A stretch of 64,000 bases of DNA. It comes from Pantoea agglomerans (GTDB lineage Bacteria > Pseudomonadota > Gammaproteobacteria > Enterobacterales > Enterobacteriaceae). Below, piece by piece: positions 3,802 through 32,261 of the stretch. The translations under genes and the position numbers were made by a program. Position 1 is the first letter of the stretch. Each line of letters opens with the position of its first letter. The DNA is taken from NCBI RefSeq assembly GCF_020149765.1, contig NZ_CP083809.1:2790001-2854000 (forward strand), in the 5' to 3' direction. Under the pieces are notes generated by a model that was not told the DNA's origin, did not search any database, and was given only the letters and a program-made list of their open reading frames with translations.

Positions 3802-5823
3802 CTACGAGGCGGCGATAAAGAGTTCGCGCAGCTGATGCAGCTTGTCGCGCACGTTCGCCGCCTCTTCGAACTCCAGGTTTTGCGCATGCTGCTGCATCTG
3901 CGTCTCCAGCTCGTGGATCTTCTTCTGCAGCGCCTGGGGCGTCAGCGCCAGATAGCTGGCATCCGCCTCGGCGGCACCGCGGCTGCTGGCTTTGGCTTTG
4001 CCGCGCGTCTTGATGACGTTCTGACCCAGCTCAAGGATATCGGTGATCTTCTTGTTGAGCCCCTGCGGCACAATGCCTCTTTCCTCGTTGTACTTCTGCT
4101 GCTTCTCGCGACGGCGTTCAGTCTCTTCAATGGCGCGCGCCATGGAGTTGGTGATCTTGTCGGCGTAGAGGATCGCCTTGCCGTTAACGTTACGCGCGGC
4201 GCGTCCGATGGTCTGGATCAGCGAGCGTTCTGAACGCAGGAAGCCCTCTTTGTCCGCATCGAGGATCGCCACCAGCGACACTTCCGGCATATCCAGCCCT
4301 TCGCGCAGCAGGTTGATCCCCACCAGCACGTCGAACTCGCCGAGACGCAGATCGCGGATGATCTCCATACGCTCGACGGTATCGATATCTGAGTGCAGAT
4401 AGCGCACCTTCTCGCCGTGCTCTTCAAGGTATTCGGTAAGATCTTCCGCCATACGCTTGGTCAGCGTCGTCACCAGCACGCGCTCGTTGAGGGTAACGCG
4501 CTTGCGGATCTCCGACAGCAGATCGTCCACCTGGGTCGCCACCGGACGCACCTCCAGCAGCGGATCGAGCAGGCCGGTAGGACGCACCACCTGATCGATC
4601 ACCTCGCCACCCGACTTCTCCAGCTCATAGTTGCCCGGCGTCGCCGAGACGTAGATAGTCTGCGGCGCCAGCGCCTCAAACTCTTCGAACTTCATTGGGC
4701 GGTTATCGAGCGCGGAAGGCAGGCGGAAGCCATACTCCACCAACGTCTCTTTACGCGCGCGGTCGCCTTTATACATGCCGCCGATTTGCGGAATGGTAAC
4801 GTGCGATTCATCGACGATCAGCAGCCCGTCGGCGGGCAGATAGTCGAACAGGGTCGGCGGCGGCTGGCCCGGCCCGCGCCCGGAGAGGTAGCGCGAGTAG
4901 TTTTCGATGCCCGAGCAGTAGCCAAGCTCGTTCATCATCTCCAGATCGAACTGGGTGCGCTGCGTCAGGCGCTGCTCTTCCAGCAGCTTATTGTTCTCCA
5001 GCAGCACCCGACGGCGATCCGCCAGTTCAACTTTGATATCTTCCATCGCCTGCAGGATACGTTCGCGCGGCGTAACGTAGTGCGTTTTGGGATAGATCGT
5101 AAAGCGCGGCACGGTGGAGAGAATCTGTCCGGTAAGCGGATCGAACAGCGACAGCCGCTCGACCTCTTCATCGAACAGCTCGACGCGCAGCGCGGTATCT
5201 TCCGACTCCGCCGGGAAGATATCGATCACTTCGCCGCGCACGCGGAAGGTGCCGCGCTGAAACGCCTGGTCGTTGCGCGCATACTGCAGCTCCGCCAGAC
5301 GGCGCAGAATGCTGCGCTGATCGATAATCATGCCGCGCGTCAGGTGCAGCATCATTTTCAGATAGAGATCGGGATCGCCGAGGCCGTAAATAGCGGAAAC
5401 TGACGCCACCACGATCACGTCGCGACGCTCCAGCAGCGCCTTAGTCGCCGACAGACGCATCTGCTCAATATGTTCGTTTACCGAGGCGTCTTTTTCGATA
5501 AAGGTGTCGGAGCTCGGCACATAGGCTTCAGGCTGGTAGTAGTCGTAGTAGGAGACGAAGAACTCCACCGCGTTATCGGGGAAGAACTCTTTCATCTCAC
5601 CATAGAGCTGCGCCGCCAGGGTTTTGTTGGGTGCCAGCACCATCGCCGGCCGGTTGAGATCGGCAATAACGTTGGCGACGGTAAAGGTCTTGCCGGAGCC
5701 GGTTACGCCGAGCAGCGTCTGATGGGCAAGACCATCCTCCAGCCCCTCTTTGAGGCGACGAATCGCCTCTGGCTGGTCGCCGGAGGGCTGAAAGGCGGAA
5801 TTTAGTTTAAAGACTTTACTCAT
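3802..5823 (-). CDS. uvrB: UvrABC excision nuclease subunit B
   Basis: UvrB is the damage-verifying helicase-like subunit of nucleotide excision repair. It is loaded by UvrA and then recruits UvrC. The 673-residue product matches E. coli length. Visible parts: Walker [11 protein letters not shown] near residue 40, the beta-hairpin region [21 protein letters not shown] (split: [11 protein letters not shown] then [10 protein letters not shown]), DEAD-like box DESH, helicase motif [11 protein letters not shown], and a C-terminal UVR domain near residue 630 ([20 protein letters not shown]). A LexA-type box overlaps its promoter region, consistent with SOS control. Confidence 0.98.
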
Positions 5824-5901
5824 GAGATGCGGTTCCTGCTGAAGAATGCGGCGGCTAGCCGAGTCATTTTACTCTGCCGTGGCGATTTTGCCAGAAAATA
5901 A

Positions 5902-5921
5902 TACTGGATAAATCACCAGTA
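5902..5921 (-). promoter_or_regulatory. LexA (SOS) box upstream of uvrB
   Basis: The 20-bp sequence TACTGGATAAATCACCAGTA has the SOS form CTG-N10-CAG with flanking T and A. Read on the minus strand it gives CTGGTGATTTATCCAG followed directly by a TATTAT hexamer suited to a -10 box, the same arrangement as the E. coli uvrB operator. It lies about 80 bases before the uvrB start. LexA control of uvrB is well established in enterobacteria. Confidence 0.75.
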
Positions 5922-6211
5922 ACGCGGCACATTAGCAGGCTGGCGCCGCGCTGCGCCTCTCTCGCTGTAACAGTGCGACAACATTTTTGCCGTTGCGCAA
6001 GGTTATCCCCAGCCGGAGCGGATTTATAACATTTGTCAAGAGACCGTCATTAAATTTCAGCCGTAATAAGCAGCGGAGAATTCTCAGGCTTGTTTTTTAT
6101 TAACTATCTGTTTTATATATAAATAATCCAAAAGCCCAGTTTCTCAGCATTATGTAACCAGGCCGCGTATTTCCTCGCTTGCGCTCTGTTTTCACTGTCT
6201 AATGCACAAGG

Positions 6212-6269
6212 TTATCCACAGGAATGGTGGATAACTAAAGGCAGCCCTTTCGCCATCGGCTGTGCATAA
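6212..6269. other. DARS1-like cluster of DnaA boxes
   Basis: Three DnaA boxes lie within 58 bp: TTATCCACA on the plus strand (6212-6220); its inverted near-match GGTGGATAA (6227-6235, one mismatch); and TGTGCATAA (6261-6269, the inverted consensus TTATGCACA). In E. coli the uvrB-bioD interval carries DARS1, a DnaA-reactivating sequence whose core has three clustered boxes that promote ADP release from DnaA and so help initiation at oriC. Box number, the head-to-head first pair and the genomic position all agree. Function is inferred from this agreement. Confidence 0.75.
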
Positions 6270-6712
6270 TTTTTTGTTGTTAAGCCGCCCGCGTGAAAAA
6301 AAATTTTTTCCGCTTAAATTCCCGCCGAAAACGTGGCGGTTAGCTATGCTTTTTCAGCCTGGCGCTGAATTTTCAATCAGCCGCGACCCACTTTAAGACC
6401 AGCTAAATTCAACAGGCTGCCTTGTCACAGCCCTGTTGCACCAGAAACGTTAACGCATCAGCACCGTGAAAGTGCAGCACCCTGATTACCTGAAGCAATT
6501 GTTAAGCATTTTTCATCTTTTCCCGGCTAATTGTGCCCCGCTGAAGCTTTAACTGCCTCAGGACGATTCTGGCCCGGTAATTGCAATGTTTATCGGGAGA
6601 GTTGAGGGAAGTAAGGCAAGGCGACATTCGCGATAGCGCCACCGTTGAAGACTTGTTTGCCAGACGTCAAAGAGCGGAAGCATTCAGGCAAAATCTGCAA
6701 GAGGAGAGTCAG

Positions 6713-7435
6713 ATGCTGAGTTTACGTTCGGTGAATCAGTTTTATGGGCAGAACCATATTCTGTGGGATGTGGATCTCGACCTGCCGCCCGGCACCTGCA
6801 CCGGCGTGCTGGGGCGTTCGGGCATGGGAAAAACCACGCTGGTAAACTGCATTATGGGTCGCCTGCCAGTTAACAGCGGCTCGATGACCTGGCAGGAGGA
6901 TGGCTTTCCGCCGCGCGATCTGCTGCTACAGCCGGCCGAGCAGCGCGCGCGCATGGGCATCGGCTATGTGCCGCAGGGACGCCATATCTTCTCGCAGATG
7001 AGCGTGGAGGATAATCTGCTGATCGCCCTGCTGGCGGGCAGCGGTCAGAGCGAAAAACCGCACGTGATCCCCGAGATGGTGTTCGACCTGTTTCCGGCGC
7101 TCTATTCGCTGCGACAGCAGCGCAGCGGCGAATTGCCGGTTGACCAGCAGCAGCAGCTGGCGCTGGCGCGTGCGCTGGTGCTGCGTCCCAGACTGCTGAT
7201 TCTTGACGAGCCCACCGATGGCATGTCGCCCTGGCTGGAAGAGGAGATGGGCAATCTGATCCGCCGCCTGAATCTGGATTACGGCCTGACCGTGCTGCTG
7301 CTGGAGCAACGCGTCTCGCTGATCCGCCGCGTCGCCGACTACTTTCTGCTGCTGCACCGCGGCCGCAACGTCGCGCAGGGGCGCGTGGCGCAGCTGGATG
7401 ATCTCACCGTCAACAAGTGGCTGACGGTGAGCTGA
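6713..7435 (+). CDS. Orphan ABC transporter ATPase, UrtE/LivF-like, with degenerate signature motif
   Basis: The 240-residue product resembles the urea/branched-chain amino acid ABC ATPases (UrtE, LivF). Visible parts are Walker A GRSGMGKTT near residue 38, Q-loop region YVPQGRHIF, Walker B LLILDEPTDG, and LLLEQ after it. The ABC signature, normally LSGGQ, reads LPVDQ before QQQLALARAL, so its conserved Ser-Gly-Gly is lost. The ATG was chosen because GAGGAGAG precedes it and family similarity starts there. No permease or binding-protein genes are adjacent. It may be a relic or a recruited ATPase; substrate unknown. Confidence 0.75.
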   Translation: MLSLRSVNQFYGQNHILWDVDLDLPPGTCTGVLGRSGMGKTTLVNCIMGRLPVNSGSMTWQEDGFPPRDLLLQPAEQRARMGIGYVPQGRHIFSQMSVEDNLLIALLAGSGQSEKPHVIPEMVFDLFPALYSLRQQRSGELPVDQQQQLALARALVLRPRLLILDEPTDGMSPWLEEEMGNLIRRLNLDYGLTVLLLEQRVSLIRRVADYFLLLHRGRNVAQGRVAQLDDLTVNKWLTVS

Positions 7436-7438
7436 ACG

Positions 7439-8107
7439 CTAGCGGGGCAGCGTTACGAAGCGGCCGCAGTCCGCCTGCGCCGCCGCGTCGGGCAGCCAGG
7501 GGATTTCGCCGAGAAACGGGGCGGGAATACGCTGTTTCAGCGTCGCCATATAGGCCTGATGCCGCTTGCCCGGCGGTTCGATATCGTTGGCGATCCAGCC
7601 CGCCAGCCGCAGGCCGCGCGCCTGCACCGCATCGGCGGTGAGCATGGCGTGATTGATGCAGCCCAGTTTGACCCCGACGACCAGAATGACCGGCAGCTGC
7701 TCCTGCGCAACCCAGTCGGCGTAGGTTTGCGTCTCTGACAGCGGCGTATACCAGCCGCCTGCCCCCTCGACCAGCACCCACTCCGCCTGCGCCTCCAGTG
7801 CGCGCAGCCCGCTTGAGAGCGTGTCAAAGGCGATAGGCCTGCCCTCTTCCGCGCTGACGATATGGGGCGCTGTCGGCTCAATAAATGCCAGCGGATTGAC
7901 CTGCTCATAGCGCAGTGCCAGGCTGCTGTAGCGCTGCAGTGCCAGCGCGTCGCTGTTGCGCGCGCCCTCCGGCGTGACGTCGCAGCCGGACGCTACCGGC
8001 TTATAGCCGGCGGTGCGGTAGCCCGCCGCGCTCGCCGCCTGCAGCAGCGCGCCGCTGGCAACGGTTTTGCCGACCTCGGTGTCGGTACCGGTAATAAACC
8101 ATTTCAT
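7439..8107 (-). CDS. bioD: ATP-dependent dethiobiotin synthetase BioD
   Basis: BioD carboxylates 7,8-diaminononanoate to dethiobiotin, the penultimate step of biotin synthesis. The 222-residue product starts [18 protein letters not shown], whose GTDTEVGKT is the P-loop, and contains VEGAGGWYTPL, the second conserved loop. The start overlaps the bioC stop by four bases (ATGA). An upstream in-frame extension lies within bioC and is rejected. It is the last gene of bioBFCD and converges on the UrtE-like gene three bases away. Confidence 0.96.
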   Translation of the reverse strand: MKWFITGTDTEVGKTVASGALLQAASAAGYRTAGYKPVASGCDVTPEGARNSDALALQRYSSLALRYEQVNPLAFIEPTAPHIVSAEEGRPIAFDTLSSGLRALEAQAEWVLVEGAGGWYTPLSETQTYADWVAQEQLPVILVVGVKLGCINHAMLTADAVQARGLRLAGWIANDIEPPGKRHQAYMATLKQRIPAPFLGEIPWLPDAAAQADCGRFVTLPR

Positions 8108-27598: not shown

Positions 27599-27606
27599 TA
27601 TCTTCT

Positions 27607-27633
27607 GGAGAGCTTCGGCTCTCCATTATTTTT
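27607..27633 (+). terminator. Rho-independent terminator of ybgS
   Basis: GGAGAGC and GCTCTCC form a seven-pair stem with the stable loop TTCG, followed by ATTATTTTT, nine bases after the ybgS stop. It separates ybgS from the two-component operon downstream. Confidence 0.9.
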
Positions 27634-27686
27634 CTCTGCGTTAACTTCCGCTATGCTGGGGCAATGAATTCTGTCAGGAAATGTTC

Positions 27687-28268
27687 ATGGCCTCGCTGTT
27701 GTTAATAGACGATCACCCGCTGGTCGAAGTAGCGCTGGAAGCCGCGCTCGACCGGGCACCCTTTCCCATCCATTTACGCTCCGCCGCCAGCGAACAGCAG
27801 GCGCGCCAGCTGCTGACGCAGCCCACCGACATTATCGTGCTGGATATCGGCCTGCCGGACGGTGACGGGCTGGAGATCCTGCGTCGCCTCAAAATTCACT
27901 TCCCGCAGATCCCGGTGCTGATCTATTCGGCGCAGCAGAGCAGCCACTATGTGCGCAGCGCGCAGGCGCTGGGAGCGGCGGGCTACGTGGTCAAAAGCCA
28001 GCGGATGGAGCAGCTGCTGAGCGCAATTATCGCCGTGCTGGGGGGACAGCTCGCCTTTCCCCCCGAGGTAACCGCCCCTGCCCTGCCGCTTACCAGCAAA
28101 GAGCAGCAGGTGCTGGCGCTGCTGGCAAGCGGCCTCTCAAATCTGCAGATCGCCGAGCAGCTGCACATCAGCAATAAAACCGTCAGCACCCATAAAAAGA
28201 ACATTCTGGAAAAAACCGGCGCGCGCTCCGTAGTGGAGCTGGCCGACCTGTGGAAAGCGCAGCAGTGA
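27687..28268 (+). CDS. Response regulator, NarL/FixJ (BvgA/EvgA-like) family
   Basis: The 193-residue product has an N-terminal receiver domain (acidic pair D8-D9, phosphoacceptor D53 in VLDIGLPDGDG, K103 in YVVKS) and a C-terminal LuxR-type helix-turn-helix (LTSKEQQVLALLASGLSNLQ to TVSTHKKNILEKTGA, residues about 130-190). It should be a DNA-binding regulator phosphorylated by the hybrid kinase encoded next. The second ATG was chosen because AGGAA lies six bases upstream. Its stop overlaps the kinase start by four bases. Closest known layout is BvgA/EvgA; targets unknown. Confidence 0.9.
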   Translation: MASLLLIDDHPLVEVALEAALDRAPFPIHLRSAASEQQARQLLTQPTDIIVLDIGLPDGDGLEILRRLKIHFPQIPVLIYSAQQSSHYVRSAQALGAAGYVVKSQRMEQLLSAIIAVLGGQLAFPPEVTAPALPLTSKEQQVLALLASGLSNLQIAEQLHISNKTVSTHKKNILEKTGARSVVELADLWKAQQ

Positions 28269-31200
28269 AACGATTTCTGCTGCTGCTGTTGCTTGCTCTG
28301 ACGACTACGCTGGCCTGGGCCGAGCTGCGGCCGGTTAGCAGCCTGGATCTGCCGATGATGATGCCGGTCAGCGGCGCCGACGCGATGCAGGGAAAAACCC
28401 TGCAGGTCGGCCTGCTGGAGGAGAGCAACGCCCCCTGGACGATGCGCGTCGGTGACGAGCTTTATGGCCTGGACGCCGATGCGCTGGCCGCGCTGCATCA
28501 GCTCACCGGCGCCCGGTTTACGCTCAGGCTGTTCGCCGATCGCACGCAGCTGATGGCGGCGCTGCAGAGCGGCCAGATCGATTTTGCGCTGGGCGCGCTG
28601 GTGAACCCGCTTCCGCCGGGCGTGTTGCACAGCGAAAGCTGGTTCAGCAGCCCGCTGCGCATCTATCGCAGCCAGCGCAACGCCCGCGCCGTGATGTTTA
28701 ACAGCGAGAATGCGCAGCTTGCCATCAGCGAAGTCACGCTGGCGCAGCTGCCCGCGGCGGTGGCGCAGAAGCACCGCTGGCGCACCTACAGTAATGACCT
28801 GCAGGCGATCTCGACGCTGCTTAACCAGCAGAACGACTATGTGGTGGCGGATGAGATCAGCGCCAGCTTTCTGCTCAGCCAGCTGCAGCAGGGCGAAATC
28901 TATCAGATCGCTTCGCAGCTGGATGTTGGCCAGCTGACGCTGCGCGCGTTTGCGCGCGATGCAGCGCTTATCGACTGGCTGAATCAGAGCCTGCGCCAGC
29001 TGCCCGCCGAGCTGGCGACCACCCTGCAGTCGCGCTGGGGCGCGCCGCTGCCGCGCTATCAGGATACGCAGACTCTGATGCTGAGCGCGGCGGAGCGCGC
29101 ATGGCTCAGCGCCCATCCGGTGATCTATTACGCGGCGGAGAGCGACAACGCCCCCTGGAGCTACCGTGACGGCAACGGCGCGGCGCGCGGCTACAGCGTC
29201 GATCTGCTCAACGCCATCGCGCAGAGCAGCGGCGTGCGCTTCGCGCCGCGTTGGGTCGCCGGTCCGCAGCAGGCTGACGAACTGCTGGCGCAGCGTCAGG
29301 TGATGCTGCGGCTGACGCAGCCGCTCAACGGCGACGCCTCGCAAAACGCCACGCTGCCGGTCTGGCGCGCCCTGTGGGGCATCTACAGCCGCCGCGACGC
29401 CAGCTTCAGCCGCTGGCACGATCTGGCGGGCAAGCGGGTCGGTATCCTGCGTGACGATGTTGCGACGCGGCTGCTGCCGCCGGAGGTGACGCCGCAGGTG
29501 TTTGCCGATCGCGCCAGCCTGTATGAGGCGCTGGCAAACGGGCAGATCGACGCGCTGGCTGATAATGTGCTGTCAGCGCGCTGGCGCATCGCCGCGCGCT
29601 ACGGCGATCGGCTGCGTCTCGCCTTTGCCGCCAGCGATATCGCCTGGCCAGTGGCGCTGGGCGTTGCCGCCGACCAGCCGCTGCTGCGTCCGCTGATCAA
29701 CCGCGCGCTGCAGCAAATTCCCGTCGATACGCAGCGGCAGATGCGCGACGGCTGGCTGACGCCGCCGCAGCCGACCAATGCGATGACGATGCGTGCGCTA
29801 CCCCAGCTGGTGCTGGCCGCGGCGGGCGTGGCCATCGTCGTGCTGCTGCTGCTGCTGGCGCGCCGTTACTGGCAGCAGCGGCGCGAACGTCTTCAGCGCC
29901 AGCAGGCCGAGCGCGCCAACGCGATGAAAAGCCAGTTTCTCGCCACCGTCAGCCATGAGCTGCGCACGCCGATGCAGGCGATCCTCGGTTTGCTGGAGCT
30001 GGAAAAAACGCGCTCTACCAACCTCTCGCTGGTCTACAGCAGCGCCCGCTCGCTGCTGACGCTGCTGAACGATCTGCAGGATCACGCGCGCATTGAGAGC
30101 AACAGCTTTACCCTTGCGCCGCGTCCGCTGGCGCTTAGGGCGTGGCTGGCACAGCAGCAGCGTTTTTATCACCCGCTGATGCGCGTGGGCGGCCCGACGC
30201 TGATCGTCGAGGCGCTGACGCCGCTGCCGGAATGCGTGCTGATCGATGCGGATCGGCTGCAGCAGGTGATCAATAACCTGATGACCAACGCGCTGAAATT
30301 TACCGCCCACGGCGAAATTCGCCTGACGCTCGCCGCCGGCGAGCAGCTGATATTTAACCTGCGCGACAGCGGCAGCGGCATTCCGCCGGAAGAGCAGCCG
30401 AAGCTGTTCGATCCCTGGTATCAGGCGCCGTCGGGCAAAAAGGTGTCGGTGCAGGGCAGCGGTCTGGGCCTGTTTATCTGCCGCGAGATCGTGCAGCGCA
30501 TGGGCGGCGATATCACGCTGCGCTCACAGCCAGGCCAGGGTACCGACGTCACGGTGACGCTGCCGCTGGCGCGCTGCGAGGCCGCGCCGCAGGAGAGCGC
30601 CGCGCTGCCCCGCTACGCCGCGCTGCGCTGCGCCATCGTTGACGATCACCCCGCCAATCTGATGGTGCTGCAGCAGCAGCTGGCGCGCTTCGCCGTGGAG
30701 GCGGACTGCTTTGCCGACGGGCGCGCCCTGCTGCGCGCCGATGCCGAGCGCCCCTACGATCTGCTGTTTATCGATCAGATGATGCCGCGGCCGGATGGCC
30801 AGCTGCTGTTGAGGCTGCTGCGCCGCCGCGATCGTCAGCGCCAGCGCACCGCGCTGCGGGTGCTCTGCTCCGCCGACGCGCAGCTGCTGAGCCTGCCGCT
30901 GCAGGCAAACGAGCGCGTACTGATTAAGCCGGTGCAGCTCAGCGATCTCGCCGCGCTGCTGGCGCATTTCGACCAGGATCCGCTGGCGGCGCTGGATGAC
31001 AATCTGCGCCAGCTGGCGCAGCAGAGCGAAAAATTTCTGGCCCGGCTCAGCCAGACGCTGCGCGACGCGCTGAACAACGACGTAGCGCGCATCACGGCGG
31101 CGCGCGCGGCGGGCGACTGGCCGCAGCTGGCGGAGGCGGCGCACCGCATGAAGGGGAGCTGGCTGCTTATCGGTCTGGAGCAAGGTGCTGAACTCAGCCA

Positions 31201-31309
31201 GCGGCTGGCAGATCGCGCCAGAGAGCAGCAGGACGCGCCGGATGAATGGGATTTGCTACTATTACTCACCAACAGGTTACTGATAAAACTGGACTCTTAT
31301 GGCTCATAA
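28265..31309 (+). CDS. Hybrid sensor histidine kinase, BvgS/EvgS-like
   Basis: The product is about 1014 residues: signal peptide ([18 protein letters not shown]), two tandem periplasmic solute-binding (Venus flytrap) domains at about 38-255 and 275-500, one membrane span near 515-535, HisKA with H564 in SHELRTPM, HATPase with [19 protein letters not shown] and [11 protein letters not shown], a receiver with D837 in FIDQMMP, and an Hpt domain with H960 in AHRMKGSW. No PAS domain is seen between membrane and HisKA, unlike BvgS. The GTG start overlaps the regulator stop (GTGA). The 3' end overlaps zitB by 11 bases. Ligand unknown. Confidence 0.9.
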
Positions 31310-32261
31310 CCACACTCACAGCGCGCCGGCGGGCAATCGCAAACGCCTCGCGGCCGCTTTCGCCGTCACGGCAATTTTTATGCTGGCGGAGGCAGTCGGC
31401 GGCTGGATCTCCGGCTCGCTGGCGCTGCTGGCCGACGCCGGGCATATGCTTACCGACGCCGCCGCGCTGCTGATGGCGCTGCTGGCGGTGCAGTTCGCCC
31501 AGCGCAAGCCCAACGCGCGTCATACCTTTGGGCTGCTGCGTCTCACCACGCTGGCCGCCTTCGTCAACGCTATCGCCCTGCTGGTAATCACCGCCCTGAT
31601 CGTCTGGGAGGCGCTGCGCCGCTTTTACCAGCCTCAGCCGGTGACCGGCGGGCTGATGCTCGGCATCGCGGTCGCGGGCCTGCTGGCCAACCTGCTCTCA
31701 TTCTGGCTGCTGCATCACGGCAGCGAAGAGAAAAACCTGAACGTGCGCGCCGCCGCGCTGCACGTTATGGGCGACCTGCTCGGCTCGGTTGGGGCAATTG
31801 TCGCAGCGCTGATTATCCTCTATACCGGCTGGACGCCCATCGACCCGATTCTGTCGCTGCTGGTGTCACTGCTGGTGCTGCGCAGCGCCTGGGCGCTGCT
31901 GCGCGAGAGCCTGCATGAGCTGCTGGAAGGTGCGCCAGAGGTGATTAACGTTGAGAAGCTGGCGCGCGACCTGACGCTGAATATTCCGGAAGTGCGCAAC
32001 GTGCACCATGTGCACGTCTGGCAGGTCGGCGAGAAGCCGGTGGTGACGCTGCATGTGCATGTGATCCCGCCTTACGATCACGATGCGCTGCTGCAGCGCA
32101 TCCACCGCTATCTGCACCAGAAGTATCAGATTGGACACGCCACGGTGCAGATGGAGTATCAGCCGTGCGCCACGCCCGACTGCGAGCTGGGCTTTGACGA
32201 CGACGGCTCAGACGCGGCGCACCACCATCATCATCACGGCGAACAGGCGCATCATCACTGA
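31299..32261 (+). CDS. zitB: Zinc efflux transporter ZitB (cation diffusion facilitator)
   Basis: ZitB exports Zn2+ from the cytoplasm in exchange for protons. The 320-residue product has six predicted membrane spans, a metal-site segment [20 protein letters not shown] in span 2 and [13 protein letters not shown] in span 5, a cytoplasmic domain with [20 protein letters not shown] (zinc-binding His), and a His-rich tail [13 protein letters not shown]. Its start lies inside the last 11 bases of the kinase gene, so it is probably co-transcribed with the two-component system. It overlaps pnuC tail to tail by seven bases. Confidence 0.94.

Follow-up and report, generated by a model that had tools for sequence, protein, structure and literature searches.

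Gene Organization between ybgS and zitB

The locus analyzed here lies in a stretch of 64,000 nucleotides (nt) of Pantoea agglomerans DNA (contig NZ_CP083809.1, positions 2,790,001 to 2,854,000), referred to below as the window, in whose coordinates all features, each on the forward strand, are given. Between ybgS and the zinc exporter gene zitB, two genes are located that encode a response regulator (RR) and a hybrid histidine kinase (HK), and it is the relationship of this pair with zitB that is described. The RR gene (27687..28268, ATG to TGA) encodes 193 residues, comprising a receiver domain with D53 and a LuxR/NarL-type DNA-binding domain (Pfam Response_reg and GerE). It is followed by the gene for the HK, which lacks a PAS domain (28265..31309, GTG to TAA, 1014 residues), and by zitB (31299..32261, ATG start, 320 residues, Pfam Cation_efflux), a zinc exporter of the cation diffusion facilitator family that scores 566.8 bits against the ZitB equivalog NF002923 (NCBIfam), the cut-off of which is 408. 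The reading frames of RR and HK share 4 nt (GTGA), while those of HK and zitB share 11 nt (31299..31309). In the one E. coli genome compared, the order is aroG-ybgS-zitB-pnuC, namely the Pantoea neighborhood minus the RR-HK pair. The position of the pair, both overlaps, and the absence of any gene between ybgS and zitB in E. coli had been proposed in the original prediction, and all were confirmed by the coordinates in the sequence, the Pfam domains, and the E. coli comparison. Among named species, Pantoea septica is close to the window, with an HK that is 97% identical.

Conservation of the RR-HK-zitB Order

The distribution of the HK was examined in a family sample of 295 genomes, with a match threshold of E 1e-60 and a score above 700 bits defining a strong orthologue. 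Matches were obtained in 39 genomes, comprising 19 strong orthologues and 20 distant homologues below 290 bits. All 19 strong orthologues are located beside zitB (in G162, zitB aligns as two pieces), and, of the 20 distant homologues, 11 were examined in their 1.5-kb flanks, none of which showed zitB. The exporter gene itself is present in 151/295 genomes, compared with 19 for the strong HK. In a genus sample of 61 genomes, an HK match was found in 56, some of them partial or broken, and zitB in 59; no genome has the HK without zitB (in G309 they lie on separate contigs). The RR-HK-zitB order is also kept in named Pantoea and Mixta loci. The tight coupling of HK and zitB that had been read from the sequence is supported, and the co-occurrence check suggested in the original prediction was passed in both samples.

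Two sequence clades can be distinguished. Clade 1 consists of Pantoea, Mixta, and allies, with 52-97% identity (tblastn), and clade 2 of 12 loci with approximately 40-46% identity. In clade 1, HK and zitB overlap by 11, 23, 26, or 32 nt in 39/41 loci, the exceptions being the decayed HK genes of loci L070 and L073; the clade includes the window's own genome (L009) and the probable same-strain doubles L010/L048 and L011/L066. In clade 2, the spacing ranges from a 1-nt TAATG overlap, in three loci, up to about 80 nt. The distances of RR, HK, and ZitB correlate with one another (Spearman 0.95 for HK-RR, 0.87 for both HK-ZitB and RR-ZitB), as for joint descent of the three proteins. Spread of the HK by plasmids was also considered and was rejected: at E 1e-60, none of 72,556 plasmid records matched it.

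Several degraded loci were also observed. In the insect-associated Pantoea sp. Eser (L070 = L173), the HK is decayed while RR and zitB align nearly whole, and in Candidatus Pantoea persica (L073 = L174) the HK is likewise decayed, with RR and zitB aligning in part only. In Mixta mediterraneensis (L068, ~4764-7710), RR has seemingly lost its end and HK its start; the HK tail and the zitB overlap stay.

Promoter-like Boxes Upstream of RR and inside the HK Tail

Upstream of RR, an intrinsic terminator-like hairpin of ybgS (stem 27606-27625) with a T-rich tail was located by a terminator scan (27606..27635), in which terminator-like sites were, as a whole, no more numerous than in shuffled sequences. 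Visual inspection of the aligned Pantoea loci shows a hairpin-like stem and T-rich tract in most of them, but not in L052 and L069. Between this hairpin and RR lies a conserved -10-like box, TTCCGCTATGCT (27646..27657, with TATGCT at 27652-27657), presumed to be the promoter of an RR-HK-zitB operon, with no clear -35 element. TATGCT is present upstream of RR in 31/31 aligned clade 1 regions, and TATGCT or TATTCT in 6/6 Mixta-type and 10/12 clade 2 loci (not L020 and L025). No terminator-like site was found by the scan on the coding strand from RR to the end of zitB. Because a conserved -10-like box is placed between the ybgS terminator and RR, a transcript reading through RR and HK into zitB is likely. 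A standard sigma-70 scan detected a -35/-10 pair neither at this box nor at the box in the HK tail described below.

Between the -10 box and the start of RR, an inverted repeat, CCTGT-GAAATTT-ACAGG, reaching the likely ribosome site was observed in L042, L045, L049, L051, and L062, with L046 alike. It is possibly an operator or an RNA hairpin.

The coding end of the HK contains a further extended -10-like sequence, TGCTACTAT (31254..31262), 45 nt before the zitB ATG. It is presumed to be a zitB promoter and is a weak, shifted counterpart of TGATAT(C/T)AT, located at -42 elsewhere. In 29/35 clade 1 loci, the extended -10, TGNTATAAT, occurs with at least 7/8 bases exactly 42 nt upstream of the zitB start codon; of the 41 zitB-bearing loci of clade 1, 35 were used for this count (L010, L054, L064, L068, L070, and L073 were left out), including L071, the HK of which has a frame break. 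In these clade 1 loci the box is partly written in rare codons, for example ATA and TTA, and in the window both of the TTA codons among the 166 Leu codons of the HK fall within its last 28 codons. Within the last 75 nt, a match as good as the best one present was seldom produced at any position by synonymous recoding (P<0.05 in 33/35 loci). Third-position GC over the last 20 HK codons of the window is the lowest of 881 stretches within the last 900 codons, and, of the 52 overlapping same-strand pairs of open reading frames (ORFs) sampled in the genome, none has a larger drop than HK-zitB. A box of at least 7/8 bases was found in 0/73 other overlapping ORF pairs, drawn from the genome's 52, which include HK-zitB itself with 6/8, and 22 pairs of G146, another Pantoea; the control pairs are long ORFs picked by script rather than annotated genes. 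The last HK codons, in addition to encoding the kinase, therefore seem to hold an older extended -10 promoter of zitB, which is the new element reported here.

In clade 2, a TATAAT/TATACT-like stretch is located in the HK tails of L016-L026, approximately 90-130 nt before zitB (at -156 in L025). It may be a zitB promoter, or may merely reflect Tyr-Asn/Thr codons.

zitB Loci without the Pair

Among the zitB genes without the RR-HK pair, 14/44 have an extended -10 of at least 7/8 bases within 20-70 nt upstream, compared with 1.9 expected, and 12 of these 14 boxes are located at -39 to -44. Given these boxes, the element looks ancestral to zitB. Many loci that lack the pair nevertheless retain the order ybgS-zitB-pnuC. 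On a ZitB tree of 77 rows, in which Pantoea was thinned and duplicates and partial rows were dropped, the presence and absence of the pair requires 9 changes, at least 7 of which are forced by starred branches, always in the same slot; gain and loss are not distinguishable on this tree. In L094, a locus without the pair from a genus that includes the pair-bearing genome G119, a relic of the HK tail was detected in the codons before zitB (score 57, 0/200 shuffles). This fits a deletion of RR and most of the HK by which the promoter-bearing tail was kept, at least in L094. The original prediction had placed sensor, regulator, and exporter on a probable shared transcript. A dependence of zitB on this transcript is not supported, in view of the conserved promoter-like box in the HK tail and the persistence of zitB in relatives without the pair; the sensor is probably not required for the exporter to operate.

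Two other loci without the pair displayed individual features. In L088, whose genus is that of the Mixta-like G130, zitB is directly preceded by the TATTCT box found in front of RR in Mixta-type loci. In L107, a palindromic TGTTATAACA precedes zitB, which we take to resemble a Zur box.

Architecture of the Kinase and Regulator

The domains assigned to the HK by Pfam are two SBP_bac_3 stretches, HisKA, HATPase_c, Response_reg, and Hpt. Profile alignment with the structures of EvgS (9ilw) and BvgS (4q0c) places a first periplasmic Venus flytrap (VFT) domain at residues ~44-262 (28394..29050) and a second, also recognized as SBP_bac_3, at residues ~273-502 (29081..29770). When sequence profiles were compared with the PDB, the periplasmic part matched both structures along its length (E 3e-31 for 9ilw and E 1e-28 for 4q0c). 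The second VFT leads straight to the kinase through a single membrane helix and a short linker (29798..29923), assigned from hydropathy and alignment and regarded as X-type after the concept set out in an excerpt of PMC5829827. The membrane segment spans residues 507-536 and is the sole one by hydropathy apart from an N-terminal hydrophobic stretch. Subsequently, HisKA with H564 and HATPase_c (29924..30571), the internal receiver domain with D837 (30635..30955), and the HPt domain with H960 (31046..31270) were assigned by Pfam and residue alignment. H564 and H960 are invariant in the compared HK rows, and among the rows shown D837 is missing only from L071, where the alignment has a gap. The HK thus has both traits of the BvgS family, tandem periplasmic VFT (SBP_bac_3) domains and the HisKA, HATPase, receiver, and HPt series with intact phosphorelay residues.

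No PAS domain was found in the HK by Pfam at E up to 1, and the membrane segment, which ends at 536, is separated from HisKA (554) by approximately 17 residues, too few to hold one. Both the BvgS/EvgS-type architecture and the absence of PAS, as initially read from the sequence, agree well with these results. This absence is not exceptional: PAS is present in most BvgS homologues, but approximately 30% lack it and have a helical X linker, as stated in the part of PMC5829827 drawn on here; PAS-less kinases are a known subfamily. In the orthologue alignment, the linker of the Pantoea HK is seven residues, or one heptad, shorter than the Mixta-type linker, a difference that coiled-coil phasing would permit.

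The RR is of the NarL/FixJ type, with the acidic pair D8 and D9, the phospho-Asp D53, and the Lys K103 invariant in 45/45 loci and a GerE domain. Its recognition helix, ISNKTVSTHK, is likewise invariant in 45/45 loci across both clades, and for this reason one common DNA target is probably read throughout.

Regarding the signal, five His and no Cys occur in the periplasmic region of the HK encoded in the window, and no His is invariant across the clades; Asp or Glu might form a metal site. H170 is present in 39/39 sequences of clade 1 and 1/12 of clade 2, and H284 in 38/39 and 7/12, respectively. D196 and D433, one Asp in each VFT, are invariant. In amino-acid substrate-binding proteins, an Asp of lobe 2 holds the amino group of the ligand and an Arg of lobe 1 the carboxylate. 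In the HK VFTs, sequence alignment alone showed no conserved Arg at the corresponding place in lobe 1. The combination of a kept Asp, no such Arg, and no invariant His or Cys does not favor a zinc sensor. For metal or zinc sensing by the HK, as had been guessed, no positive evidence was obtained; zinc is a possible but unsupported ligand, and to read the pair as controlling zitB in response to zinc would exceed what the data support.

Proposed Mechanism and Alternative Explanations

The whole is best explained, with a probability that we place just above even, by a PAS-less BvgS-family pair whose operon extends into zitB, combined with an older zitB promoter that has been overprinted by the HK tail. 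The pair occupies the ybgS-zitB slot in Pantoea, Mixta, and allied genera and, according to this explanation, would be transcribed from its own conserved promoter downstream of the ybgS terminator. A phosphoryl group would pass from H564 of the HK to D837, then to H960, and finally to D53 of the RR, which would act on its own operon. Transcription and translation would continue into the overlapping zitB, so that an active sensor operon also raises the exporter, while the older promoter, with its extended -10 in the last HK codons, would provide a basal, sensor-independent level. The genes, their domains and overlaps, the conservation, and the presence of the boxes are seen in the sequences; promoter activity, read-through, phosphotransfer, and action of the RR on its own operon are inferred. 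A fuller version, in which the kinase gene has overprinted the ancestral promoter of the exporter, is put forward tentatively, as clearly short of even. It would mean that the last ~15 codons serve as kinase tail, exporter promoter, and ribosome site at once, that the exporter has two levels, one basal and one with extra read-through upon binding of a periplasmic ligand, and that the tail may remain after deletion of the pair.

Several results weigh against this explanation. The box is weak in the species group to which the window belongs, with 6/8 bases in four of five loci and 5/8 in L040, and is shifted by 3 nt; moreover, a second 6-of-8 match, TGATAAAAC, is located in the window at -18. 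Only 22/35 loci have a dip in third-position GC that ranks within the lowest five; it is slight in L058 (rank 145) and absent in L071 (rank 507 of 881). A 7-of-8 box near -42 was not found in the 12 loci of clade 2. Several of the 14 boxed loci without the pair are close kin, with three of one genus and two of another, among others. When the relic test was applied to 43 loci without the pair, L092, from the genus of L094, displayed a shorter HK-tail match at the same offset (score 42, 0/200 shuffles), but the unrelated L103 also reached 42 with 0/200, and six more gave 3-10/200; L092 alone is therefore weak, and only L094 is strong. Between the promoter regions of RR and zitB, no shared k-mer exceeded the control. 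Furthermore, the gene order around zitB is also kept without the pair, and the adjacency may therefore be plain joint descent.

Another possibility is that zitB is a bystander, the pair answering a small molecule and controlling distant genes, with its position left by one old insertion within a conserved gene order. The promoter-like box retained by zitB, the lack of a common regulator site, and the many ybgS-zitB-pnuC loci without the pair are all compatible with this, as are the 9 changes in a constant slot on the tree, which would suit one old insertion with repeated loss, the tree being blind to gain versus loss. However, the overlap in 39/41 clade 1 loci and the 1-nt overlap in three clade 2 loci exceed the needs of a bystander, and no strong HK orthologue away from zitB was seen in the family sample; we regard this possibility as rather unlikely. 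A different account concerns the tail only: its AT-rich, rare-codon composition might reflect nothing but the translation start region of zitB, through low mRNA structure and ribosome binding, with no promoter. It draws on the synonymous constraint, which also counts against the overprinted promoter, as it peaks beside the zitB start at codons 1006-1014 (rank 1 of 1006) and is moderate over the box (ratio ~0.5-0.6, median 0.82), and on a CTGGA stretch that the clade 1 loci shown carry ahead of the zitB start codon. The specificity of the box, with its TG and TA..AT bases at a fixed -42, its absence at 7/8 from the other overlapping ORF pairs, and the similar box, mostly at -39 to -44, before zitB in 14/44 loci without the pair all argue against it, and we consider it unlikely. 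A dedicated metal-efflux circuit, with periplasmic zinc or another metal as the signal of the pair and zitB as its main target, would account for the constant company of HK and zitB and for their conserved overlap. Against it stand the periplasmic residues described above, the probable own promoter of zitB, and the many genomes in which zitB occurs without the pair. In addition, a ZntR above its curated cut-off is encoded elsewhere in the window's genome, and a zinc response therefore likely exists already. Such a circuit is accordingly judged quite improbable.

Comparison with Known Systems

The regulation of zitB in enterobacteria is unsettled between sources. It is described as zinc-inducible in a passage of PMC4424684 citing Grass 2001, while in the portion of PMC6094482 concerned, neither zinc nor EDTA changes Salmonella zitB significantly, and its regulation is called not fully elucidated. 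A conserved sensor operon ending in zitB, together with a probable inner promoter, would make this question testable in plant-associated Pantoea. The system would also place a VFT hybrid kinase beside metal export. Two-component systems encoded beside metal efflux genes are exemplified by CusRS-cus and CzcRS-czc, which resemble RR-HK-zitB in this respect; their sensors are not known to be VFT hybrid kinases. No literature linking zitB with BvgS-type or hybrid kinases, or describing the system in Pantoea or Erwinia, was found in a search judged in part by titles and the starts of abstracts.

Among known systems, the PAS-less BvgS subfamily with the X linker, as outlined in the excerpt of PMC5829827, resembles the HK in its two VFTs, single membrane helix, short helical linker, HisKA/HATPase, receiver, and HPt, and in the absence of PAS. 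The HK differs by its genetic tie to a metal exporter. With BvgS of Bordetella, the periplasmic part can be aligned (4q0c), whereas the HK lacks PAS; the gene neighborhood of BvgS/BvgA is presumably unlike RR-HK-zitB. EvgS/EvgA, the acid-sensing system of E. coli, has in common with the HK and RR the domain order outside PAS, the periplasmic match, and the class of the regulator, but the HK again differs by the absence of PAS, and we take the two loci to be different. The HK scores 223.9 bits against the EvgS equivalog NF007420 (NCBIfam), with a cut-off of 1995, and the RR, at 95.2 bits, is far below the cut-off of 251 for the EvgA equivalog NF007419 (NCBIfam). The best equivalogs are TorS for the HK (240.9 vs 676.5 bits) and FimZ for the RR (119.8 vs 271 bits), both likewise scoring below their cut-offs.

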